From assembly GCA_013792005.1 (NCBI GenBank), contig VMSU01000035.1:1-38384 (forward strand): 38,384 nucleotides of DNA, given 5' to 3'. Under the pieces are notes generated by a model that was given only the letters and a program-made list of their open reading frames with translations, was not told where the DNA came from and ran no database searches. A program made the position numbers and the translations under genes. Shown here one piece after another: positions 2,673 through 33,327 of the stretch. Position 1 is the first letter of the stretch, and every line of letters begins with the position of its first letter. This stretch comes from Desulfobulbaceae bacterium (lineage in GTDB: Bacteria > Desulfobacterota > Desulfobulbia > Desulfobulbales > VMSU01).

Positions 2673-2714
2673 TGCTGATCGTTTGCCACTATCTTTTACG
2701 ATCAGGAGGGAGCC

Positions 2715-9470: not shown

Positions 9471-9572
9471 GGTTTTATCCTCTTTTGTTGAAGTAGTGGT
9501 AATTGGTTGGTTTAATTTTATTTGAATAGAGATTGAAATAACGCCCAGAATTATCCGCCCTGACGAGGGTAC

Positions 9573-10793: not shown

Positions 10794-10821
10794 GTCAATA
10801 CCTATCGTGCGTTGTGAAGTG

Positions 10822-11007: not shown

Positions 11008-11189
11008 GATTCACTCGCTAATTTAGTGTGTTGTTCAGCCAAAAATCGAAAACGAGCAGAGGAACTGAACAGTAATTCTTCAGTAGTGCCCTGATAAATC
11101 TTGTAGCTCGTCTATCTCTAGGTAAAAACATTGCTTGAAAGCGTAGTCCTCAAGTCGGGATAGCTGGCTGTGGCTAGTTGTATTTATGG

Positions 11190-13043: not shown

Positions 13044-13045
13044 GA

Positions 13046-13267
13046 TTATAACCTTCCAGAAACAAAAATAGTATTAGCCACTTCTCTGCCAATCGCGATT
13101 TCCTGTCGATTGTGCTTGAGCATGAGGGGACCGAATGGGATTATTTCCAGGCATTTGATCTCGCTCCCTTCACTGATTCCAAAGCGAATAAATTGAGTGC
13201 GGACATCTTCGTCCTCAATCCTGACAATGGCCACGGTTTGGCCCTTCTTAATGTTAACCAAGCACAT
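13046..13267 (-). CDS. feoA: Ferrous iron transport protein A
   Basis: A 73-residue SH3-like cytosolic partner of FeoB. Family features: the opening LVNIKKGQTVAIVRI, the central FGISEGSEIKCLEIIPFGPLML, and the closing IAIGREVANTIFV. A strong AAGGAG precedes ATG. It is the first gene of the feoAB unit, with a Fur-box-like palindrome 25-41 bases upstream. Confidence 0.92.
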   Translation of the reverse strand: MCLVNIKKGQTVAIVRIEDEDVRTQFIRFGISEGSEIKCLEIIPFGPLMLKHNRQEIAIGREVANTIFVSGRL

Positions 13268-13291
13268 AATAATCTCCTTTTGAAAAAGATA

Positions 13292-13308
13292 TTGAAATTC
13301 ATTTTCAA
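13292..13308 (-). promoter_or_regulatory. Fur-box-like operator of feoAB
   Basis: TTGAAA-TTCAT-TTTCAA is an inverted repeat 25-41 bases upstream of the feoA start. It closely matches the Fur core TGAAAATNATTTTCA. It lies between fur and feoA, where a feoA promoter would be, so Fe(II)-Fur repression of the Feo operon is the natural reading. Confidence 0.68.
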
Positions 13309-13338
13309 CTTGTAGATAAAAAAATAGAAGCTAATTAC

Positions 13339-13767
13339 TTATTTGCAATCTTGACAAATGCCATAGATATCAAGGGTGTGGTCGGTAACCATAAACCCAT
13401 GACGCTGGGCAATGCCGTTCTGAAGAGTTTCGATTTGGTCGTTCACGAATTCAACGATTTTCCCGCACTTGGTGCATATCAGGTGGTCATGATGTTCCTG
13501 CTGGTTGGTTGACTCAAAACGGGCATATCCATTTCCGAAGTTTTTGCTCGTTGCAAGGCCTGCTTCGGAGAGAAGTTTAAGTGTTCTGTAGACCGTGGTG
13601 AAACCTATGTCAGGGGATGTCTTTTGAACCTTGCGATACAATTCTTCTGAGCTAATATGCCCTTTGTGTTTCAGAAAAGCGTTTACAATCAATTGGCGTT
13701 GACCTGTTAAACGCAGATTCTGTTTCGAGAGAAACTCTTCGAATTGATGTAGTGGTTGCTTGATCAT
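13339..13767 (-). CDS. fur: Ferric uptake regulator, Fur family
   Basis: A 142-residue metal-dependent repressor. I place the start at MIKQPLHQFEEFL (13767) because a perfect AGGAGG precedes it. A longer in-frame reading from 13827 would run through an operator palindrome. The winged-helix DNA-binding half contains LRLTGQRQLIVNAFL and GFTTVYRTLKLLSEAGLA. The dimerisation half has the HHDHLICTKCGKIVEF metal-site stretch, and CXXC pairs at CTKC and CQDC for structural zinc. The gene is upstream of and co-directional with feoAB. Fur is preferred over Zur or PerR because of its iron-uptake neighbours. Confidence 0.9.
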   Translation of the reverse strand: MIKQPLHQFEEFLSKQNLRLTGQRQLIVNAFLKHKGHISSEELYRKVQKTSPDIGFTTVYRTLKLLSEAGLATSKNFGNGYARFESTNQQEHHDHLICTKCGKIVEFVNDQIETLQNGIAQRHGFMVTDHTLDIYGICQDCK

Positions 13768-13796
13768 GCCGCCTCCTGAGAAGACAATATAGCGAA

Positions 13797-13815
13797 ATTG
13801 AAAATCGTTTTCAAT
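13797..13815 (-). promoter_or_regulatory. Fur-box-like palindrome in front of fur
   Basis: ATTGAAAA-TCG-TTTTCAAT has perfect 8-base arms and sits 30-48 bases upstream of the chosen fur start. It resembles the element before feoA, which suggests fur autoregulation and supports the shorter fur start. Confidence 0.68.
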
Positions 13816-14029
13816 AGAAAAGTTCAATATGTTGTCGATTCATTAAATCAGTTTCAATAAGCGGAGTGGAGATGGGGAAGGGAAGGAAAAGCTGATGGGG
13901 GAACGGGGAGGTGGAGGGGGGGATAGAAAGCAAAAGAAGATTCCCCACCCTTTTTATTCTCCCCTCTCTTCTTGTGAGTAGGAAATTATCATACACGTGA
14001 CGGCTTTGCATTGGGTATTTGCTGATTTG

Positions 14030-14314
14030 TTATGATTCTAGCCACTTTTGTAGGGCGTTGACAATTTTAGTCGCCTGCTCAGGACTTGATATCTTGAATT
14101 TGCTCTTCGACTGATACACCCCATCCTTTTTTTGGTAGCGGCGGATAATGTAACGATCAGCGCTATATTCGTTAGTTTTCTTGTCAAGGTCCTGGTAGCG
14201 GAAGAGGATGGTGGTCCATGCCCCTTTAGACAGGATCTCCTTGTCCAGTTCCTTTACGACCAGTACCCCGTCTTCTTCATAGTTAACGGTTAAGTCTTCA
14301 ACATCTGATGCCAT
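14030..14314 (-). CDS. Conserved-looking small basic protein, unknown function
   Basis: A 94-residue cytosolic protein with a good AAGGAG before ATG. It seems to be a strand-rich N-terminal part (LTVNYEEDGVLVVKELDKEIL ... WTTILFRYQDL) followed by a C-terminal helix (SPEQATKIVNALQKWLES). The pattern beta strands, FKIS, one long helix loosely recalls the PC4/p15 single-stranded-DNA-binding fold. That is only a shape resemblance, with no diagnostic motif. It lies downstream of uup on the same strand, 71 bases apart, and could be cotranscribed. Confidence 0.62.
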   Translation of the reverse strand: MASDVEDLTVNYEEDGVLVVKELDKEILSKGAWTTILFRYQDLDKKTNEYSADRYIIRRYQKKDGVYQSKSKFKISSPEQATKIVNALQKWLES

Positions 14315-14385
14315 GGTGTCTCCTTGTATGTGGTGAGTTGTGAACTCGGTTTTAATCTGATGATGTGATGAACTTGCTCGTCTTT

Positions 14386-16191
14386 TTATTCCCCAGCCTG
14401 TTTGGCCTCCAGCTCTTCCCAGCGTTTGTAGAGTTGAGTTACCTTTTCTTGAGCTTCCTGCAGTTTTTGACAGCAGACGACGAGCTGTTCCTGATCCGAC
14501 TGAAGGTCCGGGTGACTCACGCGGTCCTGGAACTCTGCCAAAGCCTTTTCGGCCTGGGCAATGGTTTCTTCCATCTTGGCCAATTCCAGTTCCTCGCCTA
14601 GCGTCATTTTTTTCTTTTTGGCCGGGGTGGACGCCTTGGCTGATTTGCCCTTCGCTGGTTTGTCTACAGCAGTCTTACCCTGGAGGTCATCAAGCCACTG
14701 ACGAAAATCCGCATACTGACGACACTTCCCGTTGCCGTCAAAGCCCAGGACAAAATCTGCCAATCGGTCCAGCAGAAAACGGTCGTGGCTAACAAGGACG
14801 ATGGCGCCAGGGAATTCGGCTAAACCCTCTTCCAATACCTCAAGGGAAGGGATGTCAAGGTCGTTGGTCGGTTCGTCGAGCAGCAGGATGTCCGCCGGTT
14901 GCCGCATCAGATTGGCAATCAGAATCCGTGATTGTTCGCCGCCGGAGAGGCGGTTGACGGGCATGTCGAGTTGCTCTGGACGAAAGAGGAAGCGTTTTGC
15001 CCAGCCTACGACATGAACCGGCTGTCCTTTGAATAGTACGGTATCGCCGTCCGGGGCCAAAGCCCGACGGAGGGTTTGGTCTTGATTCAGGCCCTGTCGC
15101 TTCTGGTCAAAGAGCACGATCTTGATCCCGTCGGCCAGTTTGATTTCGCCCTGATCGGGGAGGGTGTTGCCGGCCAGGATATTGATCAGTGTACTTTTCC
15201 CTGAGCCGTTGTTGCCCAGGACCCCGACGCAGAGCTTGGGGGTCATCTGCAGGTCCAGGTTGGAGAATATCTGACGGCCGGCAAAGCTCTTGCCTAATTT
15301 ATCGGCGGTCAGCAACTTCTTGGTCTTGCGGTCTGTGGCTTCAAAGCCGATGTCGATGGCTCGTCCTTGGGCATTGCGGTGTTTAATGTCTTGGAAGGTG
15401 CCTTTCAGGCGTGCGGCATCGTCGATCCGGAATTTGGCCTTGGTGGTTCGGGCCTTGGGGCCGCGAGAGAGCCATTCGACCTCTCTTCGCAGTTTGTTGG
15501 CCAGCACCTCTTCCTGTTTGGCTTGGGAGGTGAGCAGTTCTTCCTTGCGGACCAGGAAATCCCTGAGCGAGCCCTCGACCCGGAGATAGCCGCCGGGGTA
15601 TTGCGGATTGAGTTCTACTATACAGTTGGTGACGGAGTCGAGGAAATAGCGGTCATGGCTAATCAGGACAAAGGCGAAGGCTGAGTTTTTGAGGAGGCCT
15701 TCCAGCCAGAGGATGCCATCCATGTCCAGGTGGTTGGTTGGCTCGTCCATCAACAGCAGATCAGGGTTTTGGATCAGAGCCCGACCAATAGCCAGTCGTT
15801 TCTGCCAGCCACCTGAGAGGGTGTCAGTGCGCTGGTCCGTGTCTGTAAAACCGCATTTCCCTGCCATGCGTTGGACTGCGGCATAGCGTGCAGTCTCGTC
15901 CATTTCGTGGCTGGTTATGGCTGAGAGCAGGCACTGGAGCACGGTCTGTTCCGGGGGGAATTTTTCAGCCTGGGCCAGATAGACCAAGTTGAGTTTTTTG
16001 CGGATAAAGAGTTTGCCTTCGTCCAGGGTTTCGAGGTCGGCGAAGATTTTGAGCAGGGTAGATTTGCCTGCCCCGTTGGGACCAATCAGGCCGAGGCGCT
16101 CGCCTTCAAAGATGCCGAAGCTGATCCCGGTAAAGAGACGCTGGACGCCAAAGGCCTTACTGATTGATTGACAACTGAGCAGATGTGACAT
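14386..16191 (-). CDS. uup: ABC-F ATPase, Uup type
   Basis: A 601-residue soluble tandem ATPase of the ABC-F family, proteins that act at the ribosome E site or on branched DNA. Two nucleotide-binding domains are seen. The first has Walker A GPNGAGKST, signature LSGGWQKRL and Walker B LLLMDEPTNHLD. The second has GNNGSGKST, LSGGEQSR and LLLDEPTNDLD. The linker carries EVEWLSRGPKARTTKAK, typical of Uup. A Lys-rich region and a C-terminal coiled coil (about 525-601) match the Uup DNA-binding tail. There are no membrane segments. The gene is divergent from the SPL gene, with 235 bases of shared upstream region. Confidence 0.9.
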   Translation of the reverse strand: MSHLLSCQSISKAFGVQRLFTGISFGIFEGERLGLIGPNGAGKSTLLKIFADLETLDEGKLFIRKKLNLVYLAQAEKFPPEQTVLQCLLSAITSHEMDETARYAAVQRMAGKCGFTDTDQRTDTLSGGWQKRLAIGRALIQNPDLLLMDEPTNHLDMDGILWLEGLLKNSAFAFVLISHDRYFLDSVTNCIVELNPQYPGGYLRVEGSLRDFLVRKEELLTSQAKQEEVLANKLRREVEWLSRGPKARTTKAKFRIDDAARLKGTFQDIKHRNAQGRAIDIGFEATDRKTKKLLTADKLGKSFAGRQIFSNLDLQMTPKLCVGVLGNNGSGKSTLINILAGNTLPDQGEIKLADGIKIVLFDQKRQGLNQDQTLRRALAPDGDTVLFKGQPVHVVGWAKRFLFRPEQLDMPVNRLSGGEQSRILIANLMRQPADILLLDEPTNDLDIPSLEVLEEGLAEFPGAIVLVSHDRFLLDRLADFVLGFDGNGKCRQYADFRQWLDDLQGKTAVDKPAKGKSAKASTPAKKKKMTLGEELELAKMEETIAQAEKALAEFQDRVSHPDLQSDQEQLVVCCQKLQEAQEKVTQLYKRWEELEAKQAGE

Positions 16192-16426
16192 AGAGAGAAC
16201 CTTGTGATAAAGTGATGTGCTTGGGCTAATGATGCGCTAATGGAGCTTGGTTTGCCGGGAAGCAGTTGCCGGTCTGCGGTTAAAGGAACCATAGGTGGGG
16301 CATGATGTCAGGGTGTGGTCACACTTCGTCAACTGTCAACCGCAAAGCGATAACCTGAGCAGTGCCAATCGATGAGTTAAGGTACTCCCCCTTTTAGTCT
16401 AAACAACCTCAAGACAATTACCTCTT

Positions 16427-17536
16427 ATGATTAATCCCGCCAGTCATATCAAGAATATTTTTGTTGAACGGGAGATTGTCGATTTGCCCTATACCCAGAA
16501 GATTCTTGGTCGGGTAGAAAGTTTACGATTGCCGGTGGCGATTGTTGACACACTTACGATTCCTGGACTGAACCCCAATCAATATCCCGAAAACCTGACA
16601 AAGGGCAAACAAAATTTGCTCCTTTGTCGAAATCGAGGTCACTTTTTCAAACCGTGCCCTGGCACTAAAGAGTATCGCTGTTGCGGGTATCAGGTGCTTA
16701 ATATCGGCATGAATTGCCCTATGGACTGCGTTTATTGCATCCTGCAGGCGTACCTGAATAATCCCTGGTTGAGTAGTTTTGTTAATGTCGAGGATTTGCT
16801 TGCTGAAATTGCGCGGACCTTTGCCGCTGAACCGGAACGGCGCTGGCGGATTGGCACTGGCGAGTTTACCGATAGCTTGGCGTTGGATGAGCTGACCGGC
16901 CTTAGCCGAGAACTCGTTCCTTTTATTGGCAGGCATCCAAATGCGGTGCTGGAGTTGAAGACCAAGAGTGCGGCCATTGCCAATCTCGAAGGGTTGTCCC
17001 ATCAGGGTCGGGTTATCGTCGCCTGGTCGTTGAACAGTCCCTCGATTATGCGGGGTGAGGAGTGGCGAACCGCCACTTTGGATGAACGGCTGCAGGCGGC
17101 TGCTCAGTGCGCACAATGGGGCTACCGCTTGGCCTTTCATTTCGATCCGATTATTGATCATCCTGGCTGGCGTGAAGGCTATACTGAAACTATTGACTGT
17201 CTGTTCCGATCCGTTCCTGCGGACAAGATCGCCTGGATCAGTCTGGGAGCCCTGCGGTTTCTGCCACCGTTGAAACAGATTTCCGCCCGCAGGTTCCCTA
17301 AATCGCGATTCATGTTTGAGGAGTTTGTTCCTGGCTTGGATGGCAAACAACGGTATTTTCGCGCTCGCCGGGTGGAGTTGTACCGGCATTTGTTTAAGGA
17401 ATTGAAGGGTAGGGTGTATTCTAAGACCTGTATCTATCTGTGTATGGAAAGTGATGAGATCTGGGAGGAGGTTTTTGGTTTTGTGCCGGATGATTTTGGT
17501 GGGCTGGCGGCTATGCTTGAGGGCTCGGTGTTGTAG
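16427..17536 (+). CDS. SPL-family radical SAM protein (spore photoproduct lyase-like)
   Basis: A 369-residue radical SAM enzyme. The [4Fe-4S] motif CPMDCVYC (Cys 97, 101 and 104) is intact and sits after the family segment FFKPCPGTKEYRCCGYQV. Later parts (GTGEFTDSLALDELT, ELKTKSAAI, VAWSLNSP, HFDPIIDHPGW) fit the SPL-like group. True SPL repairs thymine dimers in spores. Non-sporulating anaerobes also carry this wider group, whose substrate is unclear. No good RBS precedes ATG. The C-terminal ~115 residues are repeated as a decayed copy at 27085-27463, beyond the giant cytochrome gene. Confidence 0.82.
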   Translation: MINPASHIKNIFVEREIVDLPYTQKILGRVESLRLPVAIVDTLTIPGLNPNQYPENLTKGKQNLLLCRNRGHFFKPCPGTKEYRCCGYQVLNIGMNCPMDCVYCILQAYLNNPWLSSFVNVEDLLAEIARTFAAEPERRWRIGTGEFTDSLALDELTGLSRELVPFIGRHPNAVLELKTKSAAIANLEGLSHQGRVIVAWSLNSPSIMRGEEWRTATLDERLQAAAQCAQWGYRLAFHFDPIIDHPGWREGYTETIDCLFRSVPADKIAWISLGALRFLPPLKQISARRFPKSRFMFEEFVPGLDGKQRYFRARRVELYRHLFKELKGRVYSKTCIYLCMESDEIWEEVFGFVPDDFGGLAAMLEGSVL

Positions 17537-17963
17537 TTACTTGTCTGTTTCTGTTGTAACTACCGGAAATGTGATACGTTGTGGGGGTGCATGCACCAGT
17601 GATCATGAAGGGATGGATGAGCACTTCGGTGAAGCTCTCCCCTGAGGTCCATGGATTTATTTGTTAATGATTTAACTAATAAATTTAATTAATTGAAAGT
17701 GTTATTGAAATGAAAAAAATGAAATAAACTGTGTCGTCAGCAGGTTTTTCTTGATACCATATTGGTAACATATTGATGATTGTAGAAACGTAAGTATTGT
17801 AACCGATTCGGGGTTAATCGGTTAATAGGAAAAGGTGCAATATGAAGTGAAGTGGGTTGTTCCTGGTATTTCTAGGTCACTAATACGCTGAGGAAATATT
17901 TTCTTTTCCGAGTTCGTTGGATTTCGTTATCGAATATATTTCGTACGGGGAGGATTTGAGGCC
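17537..17963 (+). other. 427-base gap upstream of the giant cytochrome gene
   Basis: No convincing ORF. The stretch is AT-rich from 17650 on. It contains a 13-base palindrome TACCA-TAT-TGGTA (17755-17767) and a 9-bp hairpin TAACCGATT / AATCGGTTA (17800-17808 with 17816-17824, 7-base loop). These could be operators or part of a long 5' leader for the giant gene. I could not fix a promoter with confidence. Confidence 0.4.
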
Positions 17964-20900
17964 ATGAGAAAAATACACTTAATGATAGTTGCCATTGTGT
18001 TATTGTTTGGCGCTGTTGTCCAAGCCTCAGTCATTGACGCTCCACACAACGAGACAAGGAATATCCGATGTACCCATTGCCATAGTTACGCTTTGTGGTG
18101 GCAGTATTCGCCGAGTACTCAACTCAGTGCCCCTGAATATAAGTCTATTGTCAGTTCGGTCTGCATGTCTTGCCACGACGTCGGTGGCTCAGCTCCCGTA
18201 GTTCAAACCCATTCTGCGCAGGTCATGGGATCAATAGTTTATCATGCCGGCAATTGGGCTATTGGCTGCATCGACTGTCATGATCCGCACTATCAGGAGC
18301 AGCTCATCTGGGTGGGTACATCTCCCAGTCCGTATCTGATTACCGGGACAATCGACAGCGTCAGTGTTGACGTTCCTCAGGCCGGTCAGTCCACCATTAC
18401 CTATTCCGGCGCGACCAGTGATCCCGAATGGCCTGCCAATGGCGTCGGGGTTGACGATCTGGACTGGGGCAGAAAGAATCAATCCGGTCGGGGGTTGATT
18501 TTTGTCCATGATTCTTCCCTAGCCACCAACACCTTCTCTATCATCTCCGCAACCGATAGCCAAATCGTGGTTAGCGGAATTCTCGATCCTGTTAGCGTTG
18601 TTCCTTTCATTTTAGGAAATCCGGCAAGCAGCAACTCCTTCGGACTGATTTACGGCCAACTCATTAAAAGTCAGATAGTTACCCCGACCAGCGGGATCAA
18701 GGATGTTAAATTTTTCAGTCCACTTGGTGGATTTGTTAATCTGGAGACCCCTGCGTCCGGCGTTTGCCAGGTCTGTCATGTCGAGGCTGTCCATTTCCGC
18801 AATACGGGCGAGGTCAATGTCGGGGGTGTGGGTCTTGACCACACCGACCAAGCAGCTCTTAACTGCATTGCCTGCCATGCCCATACTAGTGGATTTGCTC
18901 ATGGTCTTGGTGGTTCAGGCACAGGCTGCGGCACGACTACCGAGTGTCATGGCGCCAAAGGATCGCACCCGTCTCATCTCGATCCGGCAGGATTAGTAAG
19001 AGCTACCTGTGCGGGATGCCATGACACCAGCCAGTTTCCGACCTTTGCCGATGGCCAGAAAACTATTCCTGCCACTTCGGTATGCACCCCCTGCCATGAT
19101 AACGGCAAGGGCGTGTTTGTTGCCCCTCCCGAGTGGGGGGCCGTCAGCCCGCCGCAATGCTCGGAGTGTCATGCCGTCTCTCCCTCATCCGGTTCCCATA
19201 GTAAGCATTTGGCAACCGTGGGGATTGAATGTGCGAATTGTCACAAAGGCGCGGTTCAAGGCCTCACTGGTCCGGACCAGCATCTGGATGGCAATATCGA
19301 TGTTTATATAATCAATCCTGGCGATCTCGGCTACCCGATTGATAAGGCTATAAACTCACCAGAAGCCACCTGCTCGGTTGCTGCCTGTCATGGGTCAGGG
19401 ACTCCGCAGTGGGGGGGCACGGTTACATGCTATATCTGTCACGTCGGAGACAGCGACGTTGATGATTATACTTACGGGAATGGTGTCCTTGCCTCAATTG
19501 ATGAGGCGCAATGGTTGGCTTCCGGTCATGGGTTGGCGACTGGAACTTACGAGGTCTCCGGCAATCCAGCTGCCAATTTGATCGCTGCGGCTGGCAGTGG
19601 CAACGTTTGTGCCTATTGCCATGACGCTACAATCAACCATGGGGAAGAGGTCAATCCTTTCCGGTTGGCCAATAGTAATCTCTTTGGCAACGGTGCGAAT
19701 GATGCCTGTCTGACCTGCCATGGTACATCCGGCATTGGTTATGATCCGGATGGCGGTGGACCTATGGCACTGAATACAGCCACCATAAAAATCGACAAGA
19801 ATCATCACGGTCAGTCGCACGGGGTTGGTAATGACGGAGGTTCTCTGTGCTGGGACTGCCATGATCCCCATGGCGATCGGGCAGGTACGACTGGTAATAT
19901 CTTCATGATCCAGGCTGCAGTAGTTAAAGACAAGGCTGATACCTACGGCAGGCCAACGGCCACTGTTGCTCCTATATTTACTGCCAACACGAGTGCCTCC
20001 GATTATGCCAGAACCACTTCACCTTTTACCGGTATCTGCCAGGTTTGCCATGCGAGCACTACGTATTATAAAAACGATAGCGGAGCTAATGGCCACTTTA
20101 CCGATAGCCCCTGTGTCAGCTGTCATCTGCATGGGACTGGGACTGTTGACCGATATGCCTTTAATCACGGCGGTGGTAGCGGCGATGTAGCGACTTGCCA
20201 GGGGTGTCATGGCCATGATGTCGGTTATGGTGGAGTAACCGGCGGTAAGGGTACCTTTGCCACTCACTCGACCCATACAGAAAATGATGCCGATGACCTC
20301 CGTGGGCCGAATATCGGCTGTAATAGCTGCCATAATACTTCAAGCATGCCTGATCTTGCAGATGGTGTGTCGTATAGCGCCTACAAAAGTGGAACTCCAA
20401 CTACGGTCTGCAATAGCTGCCATAGTCCGGGCGGCACCTATGACGGAGTCAATGATCCTGTAGTCGGCGCCAAGGAGAATTGGCAGAATGGGGTATACGA
20501 AGCTAATAGCTCATTGAAAGCTGGCAAGGAAAAATGGTGCGCTACTTGTCATGATGAGAATGCTTCGATTATCAGCGGCATAACCGCACCCAACGTTATT
20601 GGTGATGAGGGTGGGGCATATACTTACGGGACTGGTTGGGGCTATTATAAAACAGGTCACGGTTTATCCGCTGGCAACAATTTCCCGTCTAAGGGTGGGG
20701 TGGAAACCTTGGCAGGTCGTCCGGTAAAGTGCGATGCCTGCCACGATTATACGGCAGCCCATATCGATAGCGATGCCAGAACCTTCAATGATAACAACAG
20801 TTCTGCCACCGATCCGAGCGCCTATCGTCAAGGTTACAGGCTTAAATTGCTTGCGGTGGGTACCGGGTCCGGTGTTAGCGGGCGTGAGCCTCTGCTTGTT

Positions 20901-23900
20901 CCCTGGCCGGTGAATACAGCAAACACCGAGAACGCTTCAAGACTTTGCTTGAACTGTCATGCCTCCGGGCCATTCCTTAATGGCGCCGACATGAATACCA
21001 ATCTGATCACCGACGGGGTTAACCGTCACGAATATCACATGAATCAGAACAGTATTAAGTATTCCGCTGACTGGGACGGCACCAATAACAGCCGAATGAC
21101 CTGCGTGGTTTGTCATAATGTGCATGGCTCATCCAGGCTGGCCATGGTTAGAGACGGAAAACTTACTAACCGGGAACCTGGCCTTATGATTTGGTACAAC
21201 AACGACGCCATTGTTTCCTACAATTCATCCTACCCGAATCCGCCGGTCCCCGAGAATCTTCCGCTTTCGGCCAGTACCGGCACGTTGTGGCGAGGGTTGA
21301 CCTCGGTAAATCTTTGTGCTCATTGCCATGGCAGCAATAACACGACACCTGAATATCGGGTTCCGTTCCAAAATGTTAAGCAAATACCAGTGGTAAGCTT
21401 TACTGGAGAAACGGGTTATCTGTCTGACGGAGTGAGTCCTGATGCTGCCGGTGCTAACAGCATTTTCGTGTTTCGAGTCTCCTATGCTAATGCCAACAAT
21501 ATCGCACCGTCAGTAATACAGGTCTGGGTGGATGTAAACGATAACGGCGTGTATGACGCCGGTGAAAAATATGACATGACCGCTTTCGTGGGTATGGATA
21601 TTAATTTTGTTGACGGCAAGATATATACTAAGAGCTTGGTCTTGGCCAAAGCAGGAGATAATACTTTTAATTACAGATTTTATGCCAATGATGGAACCAG
21701 CGATGCCGTCGGTTCTGCTGTTGCTAACGGTATCGTAAGTGTATCCAATGTGAAGCCCGTTCTGACCTGGACCGAAGAGAGTTATTATGTTGCTGATGGC
21801 GTCAATCCCGATACCGGCGGTAATGGCAGCACTTTTACCTTCAGGATTAAGTATGTCGATACCGATAACGAGTGTCCCCCTGCCGCCAGTGATATCCAGG
21901 TATGGATTGATAGAAATGATGATGGTGACTATGGCGATGCCGAAGAAAAAATTGATATGTCCGCGGCCGATGCCAATGCCTGTTCGAGCGGTAGGGTCTA
22001 TTCGCTGAGTACTCCCCTGACCTATGCTGGCGACGGTGATCTCGCTTTCACCTTTCGCGCCTCGGATGGCACTGATCTGGCTTCTAGCACTGCCGGGCCG
22101 GTGAATAAAAGTGTGGTCACGGTGGTATCGGCGGTCAACAGTCCGCCATCGCTTGACTGGGTGAGCGGAAGTTGTTTCACGGGTAGCGTCAAGCCGGCAA
22201 CCGGGCTTGCCACCGGAAATTTTGAGTTCAGAACGACCTATACGGATCCAGATAACCAGGCGCCGAGTGTGATTCAGGTCTGGATCGATACTAATGACGA
22301 CGGCGATTACCTCGATAATGGCGAGAAGCAGAACATGACCCTGGTCGCAGGCGGAGACGGTAATTACGCCAACAGCGAGGTCTATACCTATACAACTGCC
22401 CTCGCTTATGCAGGCGACGGTGCCTTGAAATTCCGCTTTGCCGCTGCAGACAGTGCAACTCCTGCTTACAACGCTATTGGCACACCAACTACCACAGACA
22501 GCATCGTTACTGTGGTGAGCACCGCCAATGCCAAGGGTGTACGTTCCGGTGGTGGTGGAAATCCCTGGTATGCTGATATTCAGAGCGCCATCGGCACCAA
22601 TGACAATATTACCATTTTTGTCTATGAAGGGACCTACGGAACTGTGAATCTGACGAGCAGAAGCAATGTCACGGTTCGGGCTGTCTGCGGTGCCGATCTC
22701 ACAGTTATTACCGGTGCGGGCAATCTGGTGTTTTTTCAGAATTGTGGCGATAACACAGTTGACGGTTTCACGATTTTGGGCGGCACTAACGGTGTGGCGA
22801 CTAATAGCATCACCGGGACGACGCGAATTAAGAATAGTAAGATTGCCAGTGTTAGCGCCGGAATAAGCTTCGGGGCCACTGCTGGAAGTATTGTTGTAGA
22901 AAATTCGGAAATATACGGGAACACGACGGGCGTTTACATGACGTCGCGGACCGGACATCAGTTTATCAATACGATTATCCGCAACAACGGTAACGGGATC
23001 TTCTTGCAAAATAGCAGCGCCACTTTCACCGGTTGCCTCATTAAAGAGAGCACCAATCGCGGAATGCTTTGCAATGGCGCGACTTCGGTCTTTTCGCGGT
23101 CGCAGTTTATTGCTAATTCCGCGACCTTGGGTGGTGCCATTTATAGTGGCAATGCCACGTTTAACCTTACCATGGAGAACACGATTGTTGCCCAAAATCA
23201 TGCTACCGGTGACGACGGTTATGGCCGTGGCGGTGGGGCTTTTTATGCTACCGGCGGCACAGTGACCATCAGGAATTCCACTATCGCGGATAACTCCTCT
23301 GATGTCAGCCGGGGTGGCGTGGGCTTCTTTCAAAACACCAACGTGACCATGGAAGATACTATCCTGTGGAATAATACGGCAGCTATCGAGGGGCACATTA
23401 TCCACACCAACAGTGCTGGTTCTCTCACCATCACTGATACGGTGATGTCAAATAACGGAGACTCCGTCTACACCAATGCGCCGTATTTTACCGGCAGCAT
23501 TACACCAGTGATTATCGGTTATATCTCAGAGGGGGATCCCGGTTTCATCAGTATGGTAAGAGGGGACTATCATATCAAGTCGCCGTCTGTTGCCATGGAT
23601 ACCGGCAGCACCGACCTGACCATTGACATCGATGGTGATTTTAGGCCTCAAGGAGGCGGCGATGATATCGGTGCCGATGAGGTCTTGGCGCTGAACAGCG
23701 TTCCGACTCTCTCCTGGTCCAGCGAGTCTAACTATACGACTGATGGCGTCAATCCGGATAGCGGCCCTGGTGGCAGCACTTTTGTCTTTCGGGTGCAATA
23801 TATGGATGTCGATAACACCGCTCCATCGACTATTCAGGTTTGGGTAGATACTAACGACAATGGCGTCTATGATGCTAACGAGAAGTATGCCATGACCGTT

Positions 23901-26900
23901 TCCGGTGGAGACGACAATTTTGCCAACGGTGAGATCTATACCAAGTCCCTTGCCATCGGTTATATGGGTGACGGGTATATCCGTTATCGCTTTTATGCCT
24001 CCGATGGTCTGAGCGATGCCACCGGTTCTCCAACCACCCATAACATGGTCTATGTTGTGAATAGTCTGCCGATTCTGACTTGGACCGGTGAGGCCAATTA
24101 TGTGGATGATGGAGTTCATGCTGAAAGTTTTATTCACGGCGCGATTTATACGTTCCGTATTAGCTATGCAGACGGCGATAACACTGCCCCGAGTTCCATT
24201 CAGGTATGGGTAGACAAAGATGATAACGGAACATACACGGACAGCGCCGATCCGGCTCTGGACGAGAGGATCGATATGACCTTGGCCGCTGGCGGTGATG
24301 GCGTTTATACCAACGGCGAGATTTATGAGAAGGCCATAGTGCTTGCCAAGCCGGTCGATTCAACTTTGACGTATCGTTTTTATGCATCGGATGGCACGAG
24401 TGACGCGACTGGTGCAGGTCCAATCGATAATAGCTCTAACATCATCACCCTCATCAACGATGCCCCGGTCCTTTCCTGGCTCGGCGATGGAGGCAACTAT
24501 AACAGTGATGGCGTTAATCCCGACAGTGGACCTCACAATAGCAATTTTGTCTTTAAGGTTAAGTATACCGATGCCAATAACAATGCTCCTACCTCCGTTA
24601 TGTTGTGGGTGGATACGGACGACAGCGGTGGGTACGCTGGAGGTGAAACGTATGACATGACGATTGAGGGAGGTGACGGTGATTTCGCCAACAGCGAGAT
24701 CTATACTAAAACTCTGCCCCTTGCCTATGTGGGTGACGGTGTCCTTAATTATAAGTTTACGGCCTACGATGGTGCCGACCCTGCCAGCGGCACCCCGGTT
24801 GCCGCCGGTGCCACGGTTACTGTTACTGGGGCAGTGAACAACGCGCCGGTCCTTGCCTGGACCGGAGAGGCCGGGTATTCCGTTGATGGAGTGAGCCCGG
24901 ATACCGGCGGGGCGGGTACGAATTTTACCTTCCGAGTCAAGTACAGCGATGTCGAAGGCAGCGCACCCTCTGTAATTCAGGTCTGGGTGGACAAGAATAA
25001 TGATGCCGATTACGACGATGCCGGGGAAAAGGTAGATCTGACCCCGGTTGCTGGCGGCGATTACGTCACCGGAAAGCTCTACACCACCACGGTTGTCTTG
25101 CCCACTGCTGGCAATATTCCTTACCGGTTCTACTCTCTTGACGGAGCCGCCATGGCAGCTGTTGGCGCTCCGATTACTGCGAAGACGGTGACCGCGGCCA
25201 ATACGGTTACGGTGTGCGCCTCGGGGTGCACTTTTGCCTCGCTCCAGTCCGCCATCAATGCGGCGAGCAACGGTGATTTTATCTTGGTCAAGAACGGGAG
25301 CTATCTGGAGAAGGTCACCTTCGACGGCAGCAAGAATCTCACTGTCTCGTCAGAGAACGGCGCCGGCAGTACCTCCATTACTGGCAGCAATGGGGACGAG
25401 GCGGTGGTCTATTTTAATGCCGGGGCCAATTCGAGTTCAGTGCTCGACGGCTTTACCATTGACAACCGATCGACTGGGGCCAACGCGCGGGGTATCTATG
25501 TCAGCGGATCGACTCCGACCATTAAAAATAGTATCATCACAGGCAATTCGGCGGTTAACGCCAGCGTGCCTGACACGGTTAGCGGCGGGGCAGGTATCTA
25601 CGTCAGCAACGGGATACCGTTCATCGACAGCTGTGCTGTCCGCTCCAATGCTGCGACTAACCGTAATGGCGGCGCTATTTACATCACCGGCGCGGCAAGC
25701 GGCGCGACCATCACTGGCAGCACGATCGGCGGTTCCGGTGCGGCGAACTCCGCCAAGTTCGGCGCAGCTATCTACTACACGGGCTCCAGCGCCGGTGCCC
25801 TTGTCATCACTGACAGCACTATTAGTTATAATGCGAGCTCTGACAGCGGCGCCGGCCTTTTCCTCAACAGTATTACCAACGTTACGGTGATCACCGGTTC
25901 GAGCATCATCAACAATAGCACCACCGGCGGCTATGGTGGCGGTATCTACAGCGCCAGTGCGCCGGTGCGGATCAGCAATAGCCATGTGGGCAGTAATGTG
26001 ATCCCGACTACGCGGTATGGCGGCGGCATCTACATGAGCGGCGCCACGTCTTCACTGCTGATCGAAAACAACAGCACGGTGAATAGCAACACCAATGGCA
26101 AGTGGGGCGGTGGTATTTACTTGACCGGCTCTACTGTTGCCACGCCGTTTGCAATCAGTAATAGCACCGTGAATTCCAACACCTCTGTGGAGAACGGCGG
26201 CGGTATTGTCTTGGAAGCCATCTCCAATGCCTCGACCTTTACCAATGCAACTATCGATGGCAATACCACGGGCTCAAGCGGTAACGGCGCCGGCGTCTAT
26301 GCCAACCAGGCCCCAGTTGCCATCAGTGGTGGTTCGATAAGCGGGAATACCGGTGGGTCCAACAGGGGAGGGGGTGGTATCTATCTGGGGTCGGCAACTG
26401 CCAGTAACAACAGCATTACCGCTACGACCATAAATTCAAACAGCACCGGTTCATTAGGCGGCGGAGGAATCTATTTGGCGGGTGCCACAAGCACCTTGAC
26501 GCTCTCTAAGGTCAAGCTCCAGGGTAATTCCGCAACGGCGGGAGGTGGCGGGGGAATACGGATTATCGCTGCTGCGACTGCTACTATCTCCAATTGCCTG
26601 ATCACCGGCAACAGAATTGTAAATACCTACAACTACGGTGGCGGTATCCGCAACGAGGGTACCTTGAACCTCTATTTCAGTACGGTGGCGGACAACTATT
26701 CCCACCAGGGCGGAGGATTGGATTGTGCCGGTACGGAGCATCTCTACAACAGCATCATTTATGGTAATGCCGTAACAATGAACCAAATTGAAATACGGGG
26801 AGCAACAGATACCAACTATCTGACCGAAAGCAGCACAAACGTAGACTTTGTCTTGGAAAGCGGGGCCTCATCCTTAACTGCGACAACCGATGGCAACTAT

Positions 26901-27026
26901 CACCTTCAGGGCACATCAAACTGCATTAATACTGGGGATGCCACCAATGCGCCGAGCGATGATCTGGATGGTAACCTGCGGCCTGTAGAGTCCTTTGACA
27001 AGGGGGCGTACGAATACATTCCTTGA
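17964..27026 (+). CDS. Giant exported multihaem cytochrome c with repeat domains and beta-helices
   Basis: A single 3020-residue protein, probably extracellular or on the cell surface. A Sec signal (MRKIHLMIVAIVLLFGAVVQA) is followed by a haem region, residues 36-1122. It has 23 CxxCH motifs, one CxxxxCH (CSVAACH, 470-476) paired with CYICH as in Geobacter-type cytochromes, and one unusual C-x5-CH (322-329). Residues 1143-2404 hold seven copies of a ~110-residue domain with an EF-hand-like loop (DTNDNGVYDANE), split three plus four by a first beta-helix (about 1522-1909). A second, Gly/Asn/Ser-rich beta-helix with GGGIY repeats fills about 2412-3020. RBS: GAGG before ATG. Long-range electron transfer at the cell surface, with the repeats and helices as stalk or adhesive scaffold, is inferred. 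No frameshift is seen. Confidence 0.9.
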   Translation: MRKIHLMIVAIVLLFGAVVQASVIDAPHNETRNIRCTHCHSYALWWQYSPSTQLSAPEYKSIVSSVCMSCHDVGGSAPVVQTHSAQVMGSIVYHAGNWAIGCIDCHDPHYQEQLIWVGTSPSPYLITGTIDSVSVDVPQAGQSTITYSGATSDPEWPANGVGVDDLDWGRKNQSGRGLIFVHDSSLATNTFSIISATDSQIVVSGILDPVSVVPFILGNPASSNSFGLIYGQLIKSQIVTPTSGIKDVKFFSPLGGFVNLETPASGVCQVCHVEAVHFRNTGEVNVGGVGLDHTDQAALNCIACHAHTSGFAHGLGGSGTGCGTTTECHGAKGSHPSHLDPAGLVRATCAGCHDTSQFPTFADGQKTIPATSVCTPCHDNGKGVFVAPPEWGAVSPPQCSECHAVSPSSGSHSKHLATVGIECANCHKGAVQGLTGPDQHLDGNIDVYIINPGDLGYPIDKAINSPEATCSVAACHGSGTPQWGGTVTCYICHVGDSDVDDYTYGNGVLASIDEAQWLASGHGLATGTYEVSGNPAANLIAAAGSGNVCAYCHDATINHGEEVNPFRLANSNLFGNGANDACLTCHGTSGIGYDPDGGGPMALNTATIKIDKNHHGQSHGVGNDGGSLCWDCHDPHGDRAGTTGNIFMIQAAVVKDKADTYGRPTATVAPIFTANTSASDYARTTSPFTGICQVCHASTTYYKNDSGANGHFTDSPCVSCHLHGTGTVDRYAFNHGGGSGDVATCQGCHGHDVGYGGVTGGKGTFATHSTHTENDADDLRGPNIGCNSCHNTSSMPDLADGVSYSAYKSGTPTTVCNSCHSPGGTYDGVNDPVVGAKENWQNGVYEANSSLKAGKEKWCATCHDENASIISGITAPNVIGDEGGAYTYGTGWGYYKTGHGLSAGNNFPSKGGVETLAGRPVKCDACHDYTAAHIDSDARTFNDNNSSATDPSAYRQGYRLKLLAVGTGSGVSGREPLLVPWPVNTANTENASRLCLNCHASGPFLNGADMNTNLITDGVNRHEYHMNQNSIKYSADWDGTNNSRMTCVVCHNVHGSSRLAMVRDGKLTNREPGLMIWYNNDAIVSYNSSYPNPPVPENLPLSASTGTLWRGLTSVNLCAHCHGSNNTTPEYRVPFQNVKQIPVVSFTGETGYLSDGVSPDAAGANSIFVFRVSYANANNIAPSVIQVWVDVNDNGVYDAGEKYDMTAFVGMDINFVDGKIYTKSLVLAKAGDNTFNYRFYANDGTSDAVGSAVANGIVSVSNVKPVLTWTEESYYVADGVNPDTGGNGSTFTFRIKYVDTDNECPPAASDIQVWIDRNDDGDYGDAEEKIDMSAADANACSSGRVYSLSTPLTYAGDGDLAFTFRASDGTDLASSTAGPVNKSVVTVVSAVNSPPSLDWVSGSCFTGSVKPATGLATGNFEFRTTYTDPDNQAPSVIQVWIDTNDDGDYLDNGEKQNMTLVAGGDGNYANSEVYTYTTALAYAGDGALKFRFAAADSATPAYNAIGTPTTTDSIVTVVSTANAKGVRSGGGGNPWYADIQSAIGTNDNITIFVYEGTYGTVNLTSRSNVTVRAVCGADLTVITGAGNLVFFQNCGDNTVDGFTILGGTNGVATNSITGTTRIKNSKIASVSAGISFGATAGSIVVENSEIYGNTTGVYMTSRTGHQFINTIIRNNGNGIFLQNSSATFTGCLIKESTNRGMLCNGATSVFSRSQFIANSATLGGAIYSGNATFNLTMENTIVAQNHATGDDGYGRGGGAFYATGGTVTIRNSTIADNSSDVSRGGVGFFQNTNVTMEDTILWNNTAAIEGHIIHTNSAGSLTITDTVMSNNGDSVYTNAPYFTGSITPVIIGYISEGDPGFISMVRGDYHIKSPSVAMDTGSTDLTIDIDGDFRPQGGGDDIGADEVLALNSVPTLSWSSESNYTTDGVNPDSGPGGSTFVFRVQYMDVDNTAPSTIQVWVDTNDNGVYDANEKYAMTVSGGDDNFANGEIYTKSLAIGYMGDGYIRYRFYASDGLSDATGSPTTHNMVYVVNSLPILTWTGEANYVDDGVHAESFIHGAIYTFRISYADGDNTAPSSIQVWVDKDDNGTYTDSADPALDERIDMTLAAGGDGVYTNGEIYEKAIVLAKPVDSTLTYRFYASDGTSDATGAGPIDNSSNIITLINDAPVLSWLGDGGNYNSDGVNPDSGPHNSNFVFKVKYTDANNNAPTSVMLWVDTDDSGGYAGGETYDMTIEGGDGDFANSEIYTKTLPLAYVGDGVLNYKFTAYDGADPASGTPVAAGATVTVTGAVNNAPVLAWTGEAGYSVDGVSPDTGGAGTNFTFRVKYSDVEGSAPSVIQVWVDKNNDADYDDAGEKVDLTPVAGGDYVTGKLYTTTVVLPTAGNIPYRFYSLDGAAMAAVGAPITAKTVTAANTVTVCASGCTFASLQSAINAASNGDFILVKNGSYLEKVTFDGSKNLTVSSENGAGSTSITGSNGDEAVVYFNAGANSSSVLDGFTIDNRSTGANARGIYVSGSTPTIKNSIITGNSAVNASVPDTVSGGAGIYVSNGIPFIDSCAVRSNAATNRNGGAIYITGAASGATITGSTIGGSGAANSAKFGAAIYYTGSSAGALVITDSTISYNASSDSGAGLFLNSITNVTVITGSSIINNSTTGGYGGGIYSASAPVRISNSHVGSNVIPTTRYGGGIYMSGATSSLLIENNSTVNSNTNGKWGGGIYLTGSTVATPFAISNSTVNSNTSVENGGGIVLEAISNASTFTNATIDGNTTGSSGNGAGVYANQAPVAISGGSISGNTGGSNRGGGGIYLGSATASNNSITATTINSNSTGSLGGGGIYLAGATSTLTLSKVKLQGNSATAGGGGGIRIIAAATATISNCLITGNRIVNTYNYGGGIRNEGTLNLYFSTVADNYSHQGGGLDCAGTEHLYNSIIYGNAVTMNQIEIRGATDTNYLTESSTNVDFVLESGASSLTATTDGNYHLQGTSNCINTGDATNAPSDDLDGNLRPVESFDKGAYEYIP
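21390..25173 (+). repeat. Seven ~110-residue domain repeats with EF-hand-like loops
   Basis: Protein-level tandem repeats inside the giant gene, at about 21390-21719, 21756-22098, 22146-22488, 23703-24032, 24069-24422, 24465-24797 and 24846-25173. Shared skeleton: P-x-L-x-W, DGVxPDxG, F-F-R-V-x-Y, APSxIQVWVD, D-x-N-D-x-G-x-Y-D-x-x-E, D-M-T, GGD, Y-T-K, GDG, YRFYASDG. The acidic loop has Asp/Asn at positions 1, 3, 5 and 9 and Glu at 12, the classic calcium-loop spacing. Copies 2, 3 and 7 have drifted most. DNA identity between copies is modest, so these are old duplications. Confidence 0.85.
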
Positions 27027-27042
27027 TAGTGATGAACGGGAA

Positions 27043-27062
27043 GGCCATCTCGATGGATGGTC
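27043..27062 (+). terminator. Candidate terminator of the giant gene
   Basis: GGCCATC (27043-27049) pairs with GATGGTC (27056-27062, one G-T pair) over a 6-base loop. It is followed by the pyrimidine-rich CTCCTTTCTGTT and begins 17 bases after the stop codon. Confidence 0.45.
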
Positions 27063-27084
27063 CTCCTTTCTGTTGAGGTGTGTG

Positions 27085-27463
27085 GCATTGTCACGCTGGG
27101 TTTGTGAGGGGGTGCTAAGACTATTGATTGCTTGTATTCAAAGGGTTTAAGGGTAAGACACGCTTGTGTAAGTCTGTGGGTGAAGCGCGTTTCTTTCCAC
27201 CAATAGCGTCAATTGCCGTCTTCCGTTTTCATGAATCGTGACGCCTGGTTGAGTCGGTTTTTCCCCTGCTTGGAGGGAAAACAAAGCTATTTCGTATTTG
27301 TCGGGTAGGACTGTGCTGGCATTTACTTGGAGATAGGTGGGCAGAGGTCAGGGCCTGTGTCTGCCTCTGTATGGAGAGTGACGAGATCTGGCGGGAGGAC
27401 TTTGGTTTTGCCCCGGATGAGGTGGTCGGATTGGCGGTGATGTTGGAGTTGTCTGTCTTCTAA
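27085..27463 (+). pseudogene. Decayed 3' fragment of an SPL-family gene
   Basis: Translating 27182-27463 gives ARFFPP ... GGKTKLFRICRVGL ... VCLCMESDEIWREDFGF and a terminal LAVMLELSVF before TAA. These match, in order, the C-terminus of the intact SPL protein encoded at 16427-17536 (LRFLPP ... DGKQRYFRARRVEL ... IYLCMESDEIWEEVFGF ... LAAMLEGSVL). One in-frame TGA (27239-27241) interrupts it. Upstream, in another frame, TIDCLY and HAGFVRG match TIDCLF and HPGWREG, so a frameshift is also present. The 5' two-thirds, including the iron-sulfur motif, are absent. It is non-functional as SPL. Confidence 0.85.
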
Positions 27464-27602
27464 CCATTTGTAATAATAACTATTTGTCTTATTTTTCCAT
27501 CTTTTAGGACGTTTTTTCCGGCTTTGTGGTAGGAATTGAGTCGTCGGTGGCATGGTGCTGTTGCAACTATCTGGTTTTGTAAGATAACAAAATTGAGATA
27601 GT

Positions 27603-27618
27603 TGGCGTGATTAGTGCT
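27603..27618 (+). promoter_or_regulatory. Possible sigma-54 promoter of the PEP-CTERM gene
   Basis: TGGCGTG-ATTA-GTGCT has GG and GC with ten bases between, the spacing required by sigma-54, and three departures from the consensus TGGCACG-N4-TTGC[AT]. It lies 71 bases upstream of the PEP-CTERM start codon. PEP-CTERM genes are under sigma-54 and PrsK/PrsR control in several bacteria, which makes the match worth noting, but it is not decisive. Confidence 0.4.
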
Positions 27619-27688
27619 TCTTTTCTAATGGAAAACCAATGGAAATGAATCTAGTTGTGCCGATAAAAGCATATTCGAGGAGGTAAAA

Positions 27689-28327
27689 ATGAAAAAAATA
27701 TTAAAGACTGGGTTAATGACTCTTGCTTTTAGTTTAATTGGCTTTGTGGCCATAGCAAATGCGACTCTGATATTCAACCTCGGAGGGGCTGATTTTTCTG
27801 GTGGAGGAGGAGCCATCTTACCCAGAGATGCCTTAATAATGACGTTCGAACAACACGGTATTGGCACTGGCACCGTACGATTGACTATCGATGCAGGTGG
27901 AATGCCGACAGGAACCGGCAAGATATCAGATATTTGGTTCAATAGTGCTAAGGCATTTGGGGATTTGTCGTTTGCTTATGTGTCAGGAGTGGCAACAGAA
28001 GGCATTATTGCTGGAGATAATGTTTCCTTTGCCGGCATTTTTGATATTAATTTTAGGTATAATACATCAGGGTCATTAGGGGATCTATATCATGATCGTA
28101 CCTCTGTTTATGATATTAGCGGCACGAACTTGGTGGAGAGTGATTTTAATGATCAGTCTACAAAGGGTATTTATGCAGTAATGCATGTGAACATTACAGG
28201 AAATAACAATAGCGGGAAATATTCAACTTATCCACCTCCTGATCCTGTCCCCGAACCAACGACCATGCTCCTCTTGGGCACCGGTCTGGTCGGTCTTGCT
28301 GCCATCCGCCGCAAGAAGAGCGTCTAA
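27689..28327 (+). CDS. PEP-CTERM-anchored exported protein
   Basis: A 212-residue surface protein. A Sec signal peptide (MKKILKTGLMTLAFSLIGF ... ANA) leads into a strand-rich, Gly/Asp/Asn-rich body without Cys. The C-terminus is a textbook PEP-CTERM signal: VPEPTTMLLLGTGLVGLAA, then a basic IRRKKSV tail. Exosortase EpsH-type enzymes recognise and cleave this signal, typically in bacteria that make exopolysaccharide, so an exosortase should be encoded elsewhere. RBS: GAGGAGG before ATG. The function of the body is unknown. The gene is flanked by the SPL remnant upstream and a strong terminator downstream, so it is probably transcribed alone. Confidence 0.88.
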   Translation: MKKILKTGLMTLAFSLIGFVAIANATLIFNLGGADFSGGGGAILPRDALIMTFEQHGIGTGTVRLTIDAGGMPTGTGKISDIWFNSAKAFGDLSFAYVSGVATEGIIAGDNVSFAGIFDINFRYNTSGSLGDLYHDRTSVYDISGTNLVESDFNDQSTKGIYAVMHVNITGNNNSGKYSTYPPPDPVPEPTTMLLLGTGLVGLAAIRRKKSV

Positions 28328-28340
28328 TTCCAACTGTTAT

Positions 28341-28398
28341 ACACTGCTGCGGTCCGAGCAGTGTGCTCCACATGGGTGGGGTACACTGCTTTTTTTTT
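28341..28398 (+). terminator. Terminator with a competing hairpin after the PEP-CTERM gene
   Basis: ACACTGCT (28341-28348) and ACACTGCT (28383-28390) can each pair with the single AGCAGTGT at 28357-28364. The downstream pairing is followed at once by eight T (28391-28398), a Rho-independent terminator. The upstream pairing has an 8-base loop and would compete with it. The site is 14 bases after the PEP-CTERM stop and about 180 bases before leuB. Confidence 0.7.
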
Positions 28399-28423
28399 GT
28401 CTTTTTCGTCGTTGTTGTGTTCT

Positions 28424-28467
28424 TTGGCAAGACGGAGATCTTTCTCTTCCATAGCACGTCTTGCCAA
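28424..28467 (+). promoter_or_regulatory. 11-bp hairpin in the leuB upstream region
   Basis: TTGGCAAGACG (28424-28434) pairs perfectly with CGTCTTGCCAA (28457-28467) across a 22-base loop. It lies 26 bases past the terminator and 108 bases before leuB. It could be an operator or part of the leuB leader. No Leu-rich leader peptide was found. Confidence 0.4.
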
Positions 28468-28550
28468 CCCTCCAGTTGTCCGTTTACCTTTCTCCGGTTT
28501 TGTGGTAGTTTCGGCGACCAAAGTTCTTAGATTCTCTCAAGGTACTTTAA

Positions 28551-29651
<1,101 letters not shown>

Positions 29652-31188: not shown

Positions 31189-32155
31189 GCGTCTTCGGGA
31201 TGCCCTTAATGCCTTTCATGATGCTCATATTCTGGTTATTGGCGATTTGATTGTCGATAATTTTATCTGGGGGACTGTTTCCCGTATTTCGCCAGAGGCT
31301 CCGGTGCCGGTAGTCAATGTTACTCACGACAATCTGCTTCTTGGCGGATCGGCCAATGTCCTGCATAACATCTACGGCTTGGGCGCTCAGGCCACTATCT
31401 GCGGGGTTGTCGGTCAAGATGCCATGGGTGATTGCCTTCTTGAGTTGATTACGAAGCTCCCTTCGTCAACAGCTGGGATTGTCCGGCTTGCCGATCGGCC
31501 GACTACGATTAAGACTAGGATTGTGGCCCACGGACAACAGGTGGTTCGATTTGATCGGGAAAGCACCGGGGTGGTTGATGGCGATGGTTTAGAGGCGATT
31601 AAAGAGTTTATTGATCGTAATTTAGGGAGCTTTCAGGCGGTTATCGTTTCCGATTATGCCAAGGGGATTATCGCCCCTGTCTTGATGGACCATCTCCGAG
31701 AGTGCCTGCGCAGTTATCCCGGCATTCCAATGATTGTTGATCCTAAACCTTGTCAGCCCGAGCGTTTTCATGGAGCGACTATTATTACCCCCAATCACCA
31801 TGAGGCCGAACAACTCTCCGGGATCAGGATTGTCGATGACACGACCCTGAGGGCTGCCGGAGAGGTATTACTCGAAAAATTTGACAGCCAGGCGGTTTTG
31901 ATCACTCGTGGCGAGGCCGGTATGGCCTTGTTTGAGAAGGGTAAACCGTTGATTACCATTCCTACTGTGGCCAAGGAAGTCTTTGATGTCACCGGCGCCG
32001 GTGATACCGTCATCGCTGCTCTGGCCCTGGGGCTTTCAACCGGACTCAGTTTCGCGGAGGCCGCCACTTTGGCTAATGTTGCCGCTGGTATCGTGGTCGG
32101 GAAGATCGGTACTGCGATTGTTACTCAGCAAGAATTGTTGAGGGCCATGAAATGA
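31169..32155 (+). CDS. hldA: D-glycero-beta-D-manno-heptose-7-phosphate kinase (RfaE domain I)
   Basis: A 328-residue PfkB-family kinase that makes heptose-1,7-bisphosphate for the LPS inner core. Motifs: VIGDLIVDNFIWG and SPEAPVPVV at the N-terminus, LLGGSANVLHN (sugar binding), DPKP, ITPNHHEAE, and the catalytic DVTGAGDTVIAAL. It lacks the nucleotidyltransferase domain of E. coli HldE, so a separate hldC/rfaE2 should exist elsewhere. AAGGAG lies inside the end of the upstream glycosyltransferase gene. Its stop overlaps the yicC start (ATGA). Confidence 0.92.
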   Translation: MTLIKNKRLRDALNAFHDAHILVIGDLIVDNFIWGTVSRISPEAPVPVVNVTHDNLLLGGSANVLHNIYGLGAQATICGVVGQDAMGDCLLELITKLPSSTAGIVRLADRPTTIKTRIVAHGQQVVRFDRESTGVVDGDGLEAIKEFIDRNLGSFQAVIVSDYAKGIIAPVLMDHLRECLRSYPGIPMIVDPKPCQPERFHGATIITPNHHEAEQLSGIRIVDDTTLRAAGEVLLEKFDSQAVLITRGEAGMALFEKGKPLITIPTVAKEVFDVTGAGDTVIAALALGLSTGLSFAEAATLANVAAGIVVGKIGTAIVTQQELLRAMK

Positions 32156-33033: not shown

Positions 33034-33054
33034 GGGCGGGTTAGGGAGGGTGCT

Positions 33055-33327
33055 ATGGATAGACGTTTAATCAATATTGGTTTTGGGAATGCGGTGATGG
33101 CGGGACGGGTAATCGCGATTGTTAATCCTAAGTCCTCACCGATGAAGAAATTGAAAGATGAGGCCAAAAATGCTGGTAAACTGGTCGACGCAACCGAAGG
33201 CCGTCGGACCAGGGCGATTCTGGTAATGGACTCGAATCATGTGGTGTTGTCTTCGGTGCAGACCGAGACCTTGACCCAGCGTTTTCAACCCCTGGCCGAT
33301 CAGGGGTCGGATGAGGAGTTGCCATGA
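33055..33327 (+). CDS. remA: RemA/DUF370 family regulator
   Basis: A 90-residue protein of the DUF370 family. In Bacillus, RemA is a DNA-binding activator of biofilm matrix genes. The family core is visible: [28 protein letters not shown], then [38 protein letters not shown] lies before ATG. Its stop overlaps the gmk start (ATGA). Whether it controls extracellular matrix here is unknown, but the surface-related neighbours fit. Confidence 0.9.

Follow-up and report, generated by a model that had tools for sequence, protein, structure and literature searches.

A predicted multihaem c-type cytochrome with an adhesin-like tail of Ig-like repeats and beta-helices recurs in uncultured bacteria

We analysed a 38,384-nucleotide stretch of DNA from a Desulfobulbaceae bacterium (contig VMSU01000035.1), referred to below as the window, which carries one very large forward-strand reading frame (Table 1). 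The frame runs from its ATG to the TGA at 27026 with zero internal stops and encodes 3,020 residues. A sequence-only reading had described it as a single unbroken frame fusing an exported cytochrome to repeats and beta-helices, and the results bore this out, as haem and beta-helix families were found in one chain. The gene is flanked by a spore-photoproduct-lyase-like radical SAM gene and a PEP-CTERM gene; the latter (27689-28327, +) lies 660 bases downstream, encodes 212 residues that include a PEP-CTERM sorting motif and has a strong terminator-like hairpin behind it (28356-28391). The genes yicC, remA-like and guanylate kinase stand in this order at 32152-33941 (+); matrix regulators of the RemA type are known above all from biofilms of Bacillus. 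No operon for extracellular electron transfer was found around the window copy, and no dedicated secretion gene adjoins it. Within the window no RNA families or tRNA were detected, and promoter and terminator scans gave counts at chance level. The source genome contains two dsrA genes, so the organism is probably a sulfate reducer or a sulfur oxidiser, and an MtrB_PioB search of this genome returned no MtrB/PioB porin.

Table 1. Positions of the features of the 3,020-residue protein and its gene in the window
Feature	Residues	Position	Strand	Evidence
Ribosome-binding-like GGGGAGG, 5' of the ATG at 17964		17947..17953	+	sequence
Whole ORF, 3,020 aa	1-3020	17964..27026	+	homologues cover full frame
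Sec-type signal peptide, no lipobox	1-21	17964..18026	+	sequence, MRKIHLMIVAIVLLFGAVVQA followed by S
N-terminal haem module	22-330	18027..18953	+	36-51% identity to own-genome paralogues
Extra haem stretch	305-690	18876..20033	+	motif counts in relatives
Conserved family haem core	740-1122	20181..21329	+	60% mean column identity; 60-63% pairwise
Repeat 1, Ig-like, acidic loop	1135-1252	21366..21719	+	repeat HMM; model
Repeat 2	1258-1377	21735..22094	+	repeat HMM; model
Repeat 3	1388-1508	22125..22487	+	repeat HMM; model
Right-handed beta-helix 1	~1516-1905	22509..23678	+	Pfam Beta_helix; AlphaFold2; Foldseek AlgE4/AlgE6
Repeat 4, matches Pfam GEVED	1907-2023	23682..24032	+	repeat HMM; Pfam
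Repeat 5	2029-2152	24048..24419	+	repeat HMM
Repeat 6	2161-2278	24444..24797	+	repeat HMM
Repeat 7	2288-2403	24825..25172	+	repeat HMM
Right-handed beta-helix 2	~2405-3020	25176..27023	+	Pfam Beta_helix stretches; 54% tail identity in a relative
Choice-of-anchor Q (choice_anch_Q)	2979-3018	26898..27017	+	domain match

The haem region occupies the N-terminal part of the chain. Residues 36-1122 contain 23 CxxCH motifs, one C-x4-CH (residue 470) and one C-x5-CH (residue 322), giving 25 "CH" sites behind a signal peptide, in agreement with the exported region of about 25 haems proposed earlier. A further 34 His in residues 1-1125 are possible distal ligands. An exported protein with at least three CxxCH motifs qualifies as a multihaem c-type cytochrome, with haem attachment predicted from these motifs, and Pfam matched Cytochrome_C7 (4e-19) and an MtrC/F-like domain (9e-20). 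The N-terminal haem module includes a Cys-free insert at residues 106-267. Complete fused relatives carry 10-21 CxxCH motifs, mostly 10-13. A stretch of ~400 residues (~305-690) that has few relatives lies between the paralogue-like N-terminal module and the family core, and its additional motifs account for the 25 sites where 10-13 are usual. With the CQVCH segment at residue 268 recurring at 692, the stretch has the appearance of an inserted or duplicated module in the window copy.

The tail follows the order of three repeats, a helix, four repeats and a helix. The repeat HMM counted exactly seven copies of ~118 residues, each with E<1e-37, matching the seven copies of a ~110-residue domain noted previously. 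GEVED (PF20009) matched the protein with E=4.6e-11 and 43.8 bits against a gathering score of 24.4, its best stretch (1957-2010) being only part of one repeat. The acidic loop (W-V-D-x-N/D-D-x-G-x-Y ... G-E) hardly varied among 82 copies of the repeat: the positions D, N/D and D/N always held an acidic or amide residue (100%), and the E was conserved in 96%. This conservation fits a predicted calcium site, which is plausible. Pfam Beta_helix matched the protein in five stretches (E=1.6e-21); both of the right-handed beta-helix blocks described from the sequence were thus confirmed, and the first was also modelled.

Structure prediction by segment succeeded for one part of the protein and failed for another. 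AlphaFold2, run on residues 1133-1905 with 33 relatives, modelled repeats 1-3 and helix 1 with a mean pLDDT of 89.8. The haem region gave a mean pLDDT of 42.9 and no usable fold, so its haem stacking is assumed, and the fold search was not based on it. A Foldseek search of the tail model against the PDB returned partial matches to a multi-modular xanthanase, to SiiE, a giant adhesin that binds calcium, to PrgB Ig domains and to the beta-helices of the alginate epimerases AlgE4/AlgE6; the beta-helix also matched a GH87 glucanase. These matches are fold-level, with 8-16% identity and low TM-scores over the whole model. The proteins matched by Foldseek are of extracellular and polysaccharide-linked types. 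By sequence, the only match in the PDB was a xanthanase module, to a repeat, and no cytochrome matched at E<0.01 (core profile) or 1e-3 (whole single sequence). The chain ends in GAYEYIP right behind choice_anch_Q, with no C-terminal sorting signal of the PEP-CTERM or LPXTG type.

We searched for the same domain order in other genomes in two ways. In 96 genomes related to the source genome, reading of the hit regions revealed more than 12 single frames with 11-13 CxxCH motifs, repeats and helices. We also scanned 84,980 species genomes with the haem-core/repeat junction, using two peptide patterns wholly within the haem core, so that the tail did not bias matches at that step; confirmation used the whole query. 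The results showed that 45 of 67 core-bearing frames join core, repeats and helix, and 32 of these 45 are complete (1,266-3,357 aa); besides them there were 7 tail-only and 20 core-only frames, some cut by contig ends. In homologues, alignments of 2,400-2,700 residues at 32-44% identity run through the junctions, and the haem-core/repeat junction itself is 60% conserved. A hidden stop or frameshift between the haem region and the repeats is ruled out by these homologues, and the 45 fused frames rule out that the two halves are, as a rule, separate genes; either finding would have undone the sequence-only reading. Three other genomes of the same genus gave zero haem-region matches at 1e-100.

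The titles of the fused frames name at least eight phyla (Thermodesulfobacteriota, Nitrospirota, Myxococcota, Pseudomonadota, Acidobacteriota, Actinomycetota, Zixibacteria and Spirochaetota); nearly all come from metagenome bins, in which single assignments may be wrong. Phyla are mixed on the haem-core tree, and with titles of this kind transfer is suggested only. Some relatives carry POMP-type repeats. An exported NHL beta-propeller protein is encoded within 13 of 41 fused loci, mostly next door, and often bears PKD or BACON domains (L050, L051, L052, L055, L058, L060, L067, L071, L073, L096, L097, L099 and others); no NHL gene adjoins the window copy. NHL proteins also adjoin an OmcE homologue in Geoalkalibacter (PMC12016550). 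In one locus (L115:7973-13411, +), a single 1,812-aa frame covers both a fused cytochrome and an NHL lipoprotein. We rejected it as a gene fusion: an inner second signal-peptide-like stretch points to two genes whose separating stop was probably lost.

The N-terminal haem module is common to about 12 proteins of the source genome, whose tails differ: Calx-beta, thrombospondin-3 and Lcl_C on contig C190, Calx-beta on C22, and cadherin-like/Ig domains on C133. The C190 protein (L016; 23000-32614, +) has 3,204 aa, a 24-CxxCH head, about 12 Calx-beta domains, thrombospondin-3 repeats and Lcl_C. The C22 protein (L013/L014 pair; 8645-22045, +) has 4,466 aa, 110 CxxCH motifs and a Calx-beta tail, and its neighbour in the pair (22623-28823, +) has at least 2,067 aa and 66 CxxCH motifs. 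On the minus strand of C173 (loci L018 and L019; 25409..3), a frame with a signal peptide runs off the contig end after at least 8,469 aa and 252 CxxCH motifs. Its paralogue on C176 (L139:2-17089, +) fills an entire 17-kb contig as one frame open at both ends, with at least 5,696 aa and 173 CxxCH motifs. The repeated units in these two proteins are 53-80% identical to the probe unit. As the longest exact repeat within C173 is 35 nt and the longest identical stretch between C173 and C176 is 94 nt, at the C176 end, an artefact of collapsed repeats is unlikely. A single-chain wire of more than 250 haems would reach up to ~0.2 micrometre if stacked at OmcS spacing. The largest published counts that we found were 113 motifs in Methanoperedens Mn-2 (PMC7327174) and 86 in Desulfuromonas acetexigens (PMC12133095; PMC9012536 also gives 86). 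The window protein resembles these in being very large and putatively linked to extracellular electron transfer; it has 25 sites, and its paralogues exceed both maxima. Counts of 252 and 173 against 113 and 86 raise the question of how far one chain can conduct. We offer only as a tentative idea, more doubtful than the reading given next, that the window protein belongs to an undescribed, phylum-crossing class of bacterial cytochrome-adhesins, with a conserved haem core locked to an anchor of Ig-like repeats and beta-helices, and that this lineage makes monomeric "cables" and tethers, not polymeric nanowires.

We favour, with a probability of roughly 60%, a multihaem c-type cytochrome that is secreted to the outer surface and brings its own adhesin-like tail, by which it would be tethered as an electron relay. 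The protein would cross the outer membrane to the exterior, where its haems may stack as a chain and accept electrons from carriers in the outer membrane or the periplasm. Calcium would stiffen the Ig-like repeats into a stalk, and the beta-helices may bind polysaccharide, a partner cell or the surface of a mineral, thereby holding the conductive head where electrons must arrive. The electron-transfer role is one that we infer. That the cytochrome belongs to a surface protein, as had been proposed, is supported by the signal peptide, the adhesin/CAZyme-like tail and the domain order conserved in many genomes. The same evidence speaks for the surface part of the earlier term "surface-anchored"; no membrane anchor was found in the window protein, nor anything anchor-like C-terminal of choice_anch_Q, and the anchoring is presumed. 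The paralogues that join the same N-terminal haem module to other adhesin-type tails were counted in favour of the tethered relay, as were the Foldseek matches, the conserved acidic loop and the NHL proteins encoded in 13 of 41 fused loci. Counted against it were the lack of a membrane anchor, a sorting signal, an adjoining secretion gene and an NHL neighbour in the window copy, the failure to find a porin of the MtrB/PioB type in the genome, and the unmodelled haem region.

The matches of the tail also fit a haem-bearing, polysaccharide-active enzyme, in which the helices would cut or epimerise a matrix polysaccharide, the repeats would bind it and the haems would exchange electrons. Here the beta-helix matches to AlgE4/AlgE6 epimerase A-modules and the GH87 glucanase, together with repeats that match a xanthanase module both by sequence and by structure, count in its favour. 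The structural similarity is only fold-level, many beta-helices merely bind or are structural, and 10-25 haems are far above the need of such chemistry; we consider an enzyme improbable.

A similarly low probability applies to a nanowire subunit, whose haem region would polymerise like OmcS or OmcE with the tail as a cap or spacer. An extracellular multihaem protein, with some relatives near NHL beta-propeller genes as for the OmcE homologue elsewhere (PMC12016550), would suit this role. In the sequence searches described above no solved cytochrome matched significantly, the nanowire cytochromes OmcS, OmcE and OmcZ included; a tight filament would hardly have room for a tail of ~1,900 residues on every subunit, and the paralogues of the source genome enlarge by more haems in one chain instead.

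It is equally hard to favour a protein that is mainly an adhesin or a surface-layer or matrix component, with haems that store charge, hold iron or add bulk and form no conduit. Although the tail makes up ~63% of the chain and tails vary among paralogues, conservation is highest in the haem core (60% compared with ~40% for the tail). Finally, the source genome is a draft in 252 contigs that probably stems from metagenome binning, but an assembly or sequencing artefact fusing two genes is exceedingly improbable, as the same join occurs in dozens of independent records with identity running unbroken across it.

If the tethered relay is correct, many uncultured anaerobes in several phyla possess a ready-made module for attaching an electron-conducting head to a mineral, a partner cell or a matrix, and the positioning of outer-surface cytochromes becomes directly testable with one gene. 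Since the fusion turns up in dozens of uncultured bacteria under titles from many phyla, fixing an electron wire to an exterior surface in this way may be common. The conserved core (60% identity; peptides WGYYKTGH and GKEKWCATCHDE) is usable as a marker for finding such organisms.

We compared the protein with known systems. Surface proteins of the choice-of-anchor Q and polymorphic-outer-membrane-protein-like families share the beta-helix and the choice_anch_Q C-terminus; these families are not defined by haem domains, and in the window protein no sorting signal follows. Parts of the haem region resemble the outer-surface decahaem cytochromes MtrC and MtrF in matching the Pfam MtrC/F-like domain II/IV, but the match is partial: the full architecture was not found, the genome search gave no MtrB-type porin, no solved cytochrome matched the haem core by sequence, and the window protein exceeds MtrC and MtrF more than twofold in haem number and adds a huge tail. 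OetF of syntrophic sulfate reducers is a fibronectin-bearing multihaem cytochrome (PMC10553843), and Ga0056053_03448 of Geoalkalibacter ferrihydriticus has 24 haems in 1,208 aa with N-terminal fibronectin domains (PMC12016550). Like the window protein, these two fuse a cytochrome to adhesion-type domains with a proposed contact to matrix or partner, whereas their added domains are fibronectin type III only, with no beta-helices reported. ANME MHC type C would work in a similar way: as described in the available text of Chadwick et al. 2022 (PMC9012536), this giant multihaem cytochrome bears a pectin-lyase-like (right-handed beta-helix) domain in the same chain, with a suggested role in partner-cell recognition. 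By that description it differs in being archaeal and in having the lyase-like domain N-terminal, the reverse of the haem-first order of the window protein, and a seven-copy Ig-like repeat array is not part of it. With MHC-C and the fibronectin-bearing cytochromes as precedents, the kind of protein is already known, and the earlier view of the fusion as unusual was overstated. Our search of the literature outside subscription for multihaem proteins combined with a beta-helix or with pectin lyase yielded no account of a bacterial family of this type; the joining of haem core, Ig-like repeats and beta-helices thus appears to define a previously undescribed bacterial family within the literature searched.
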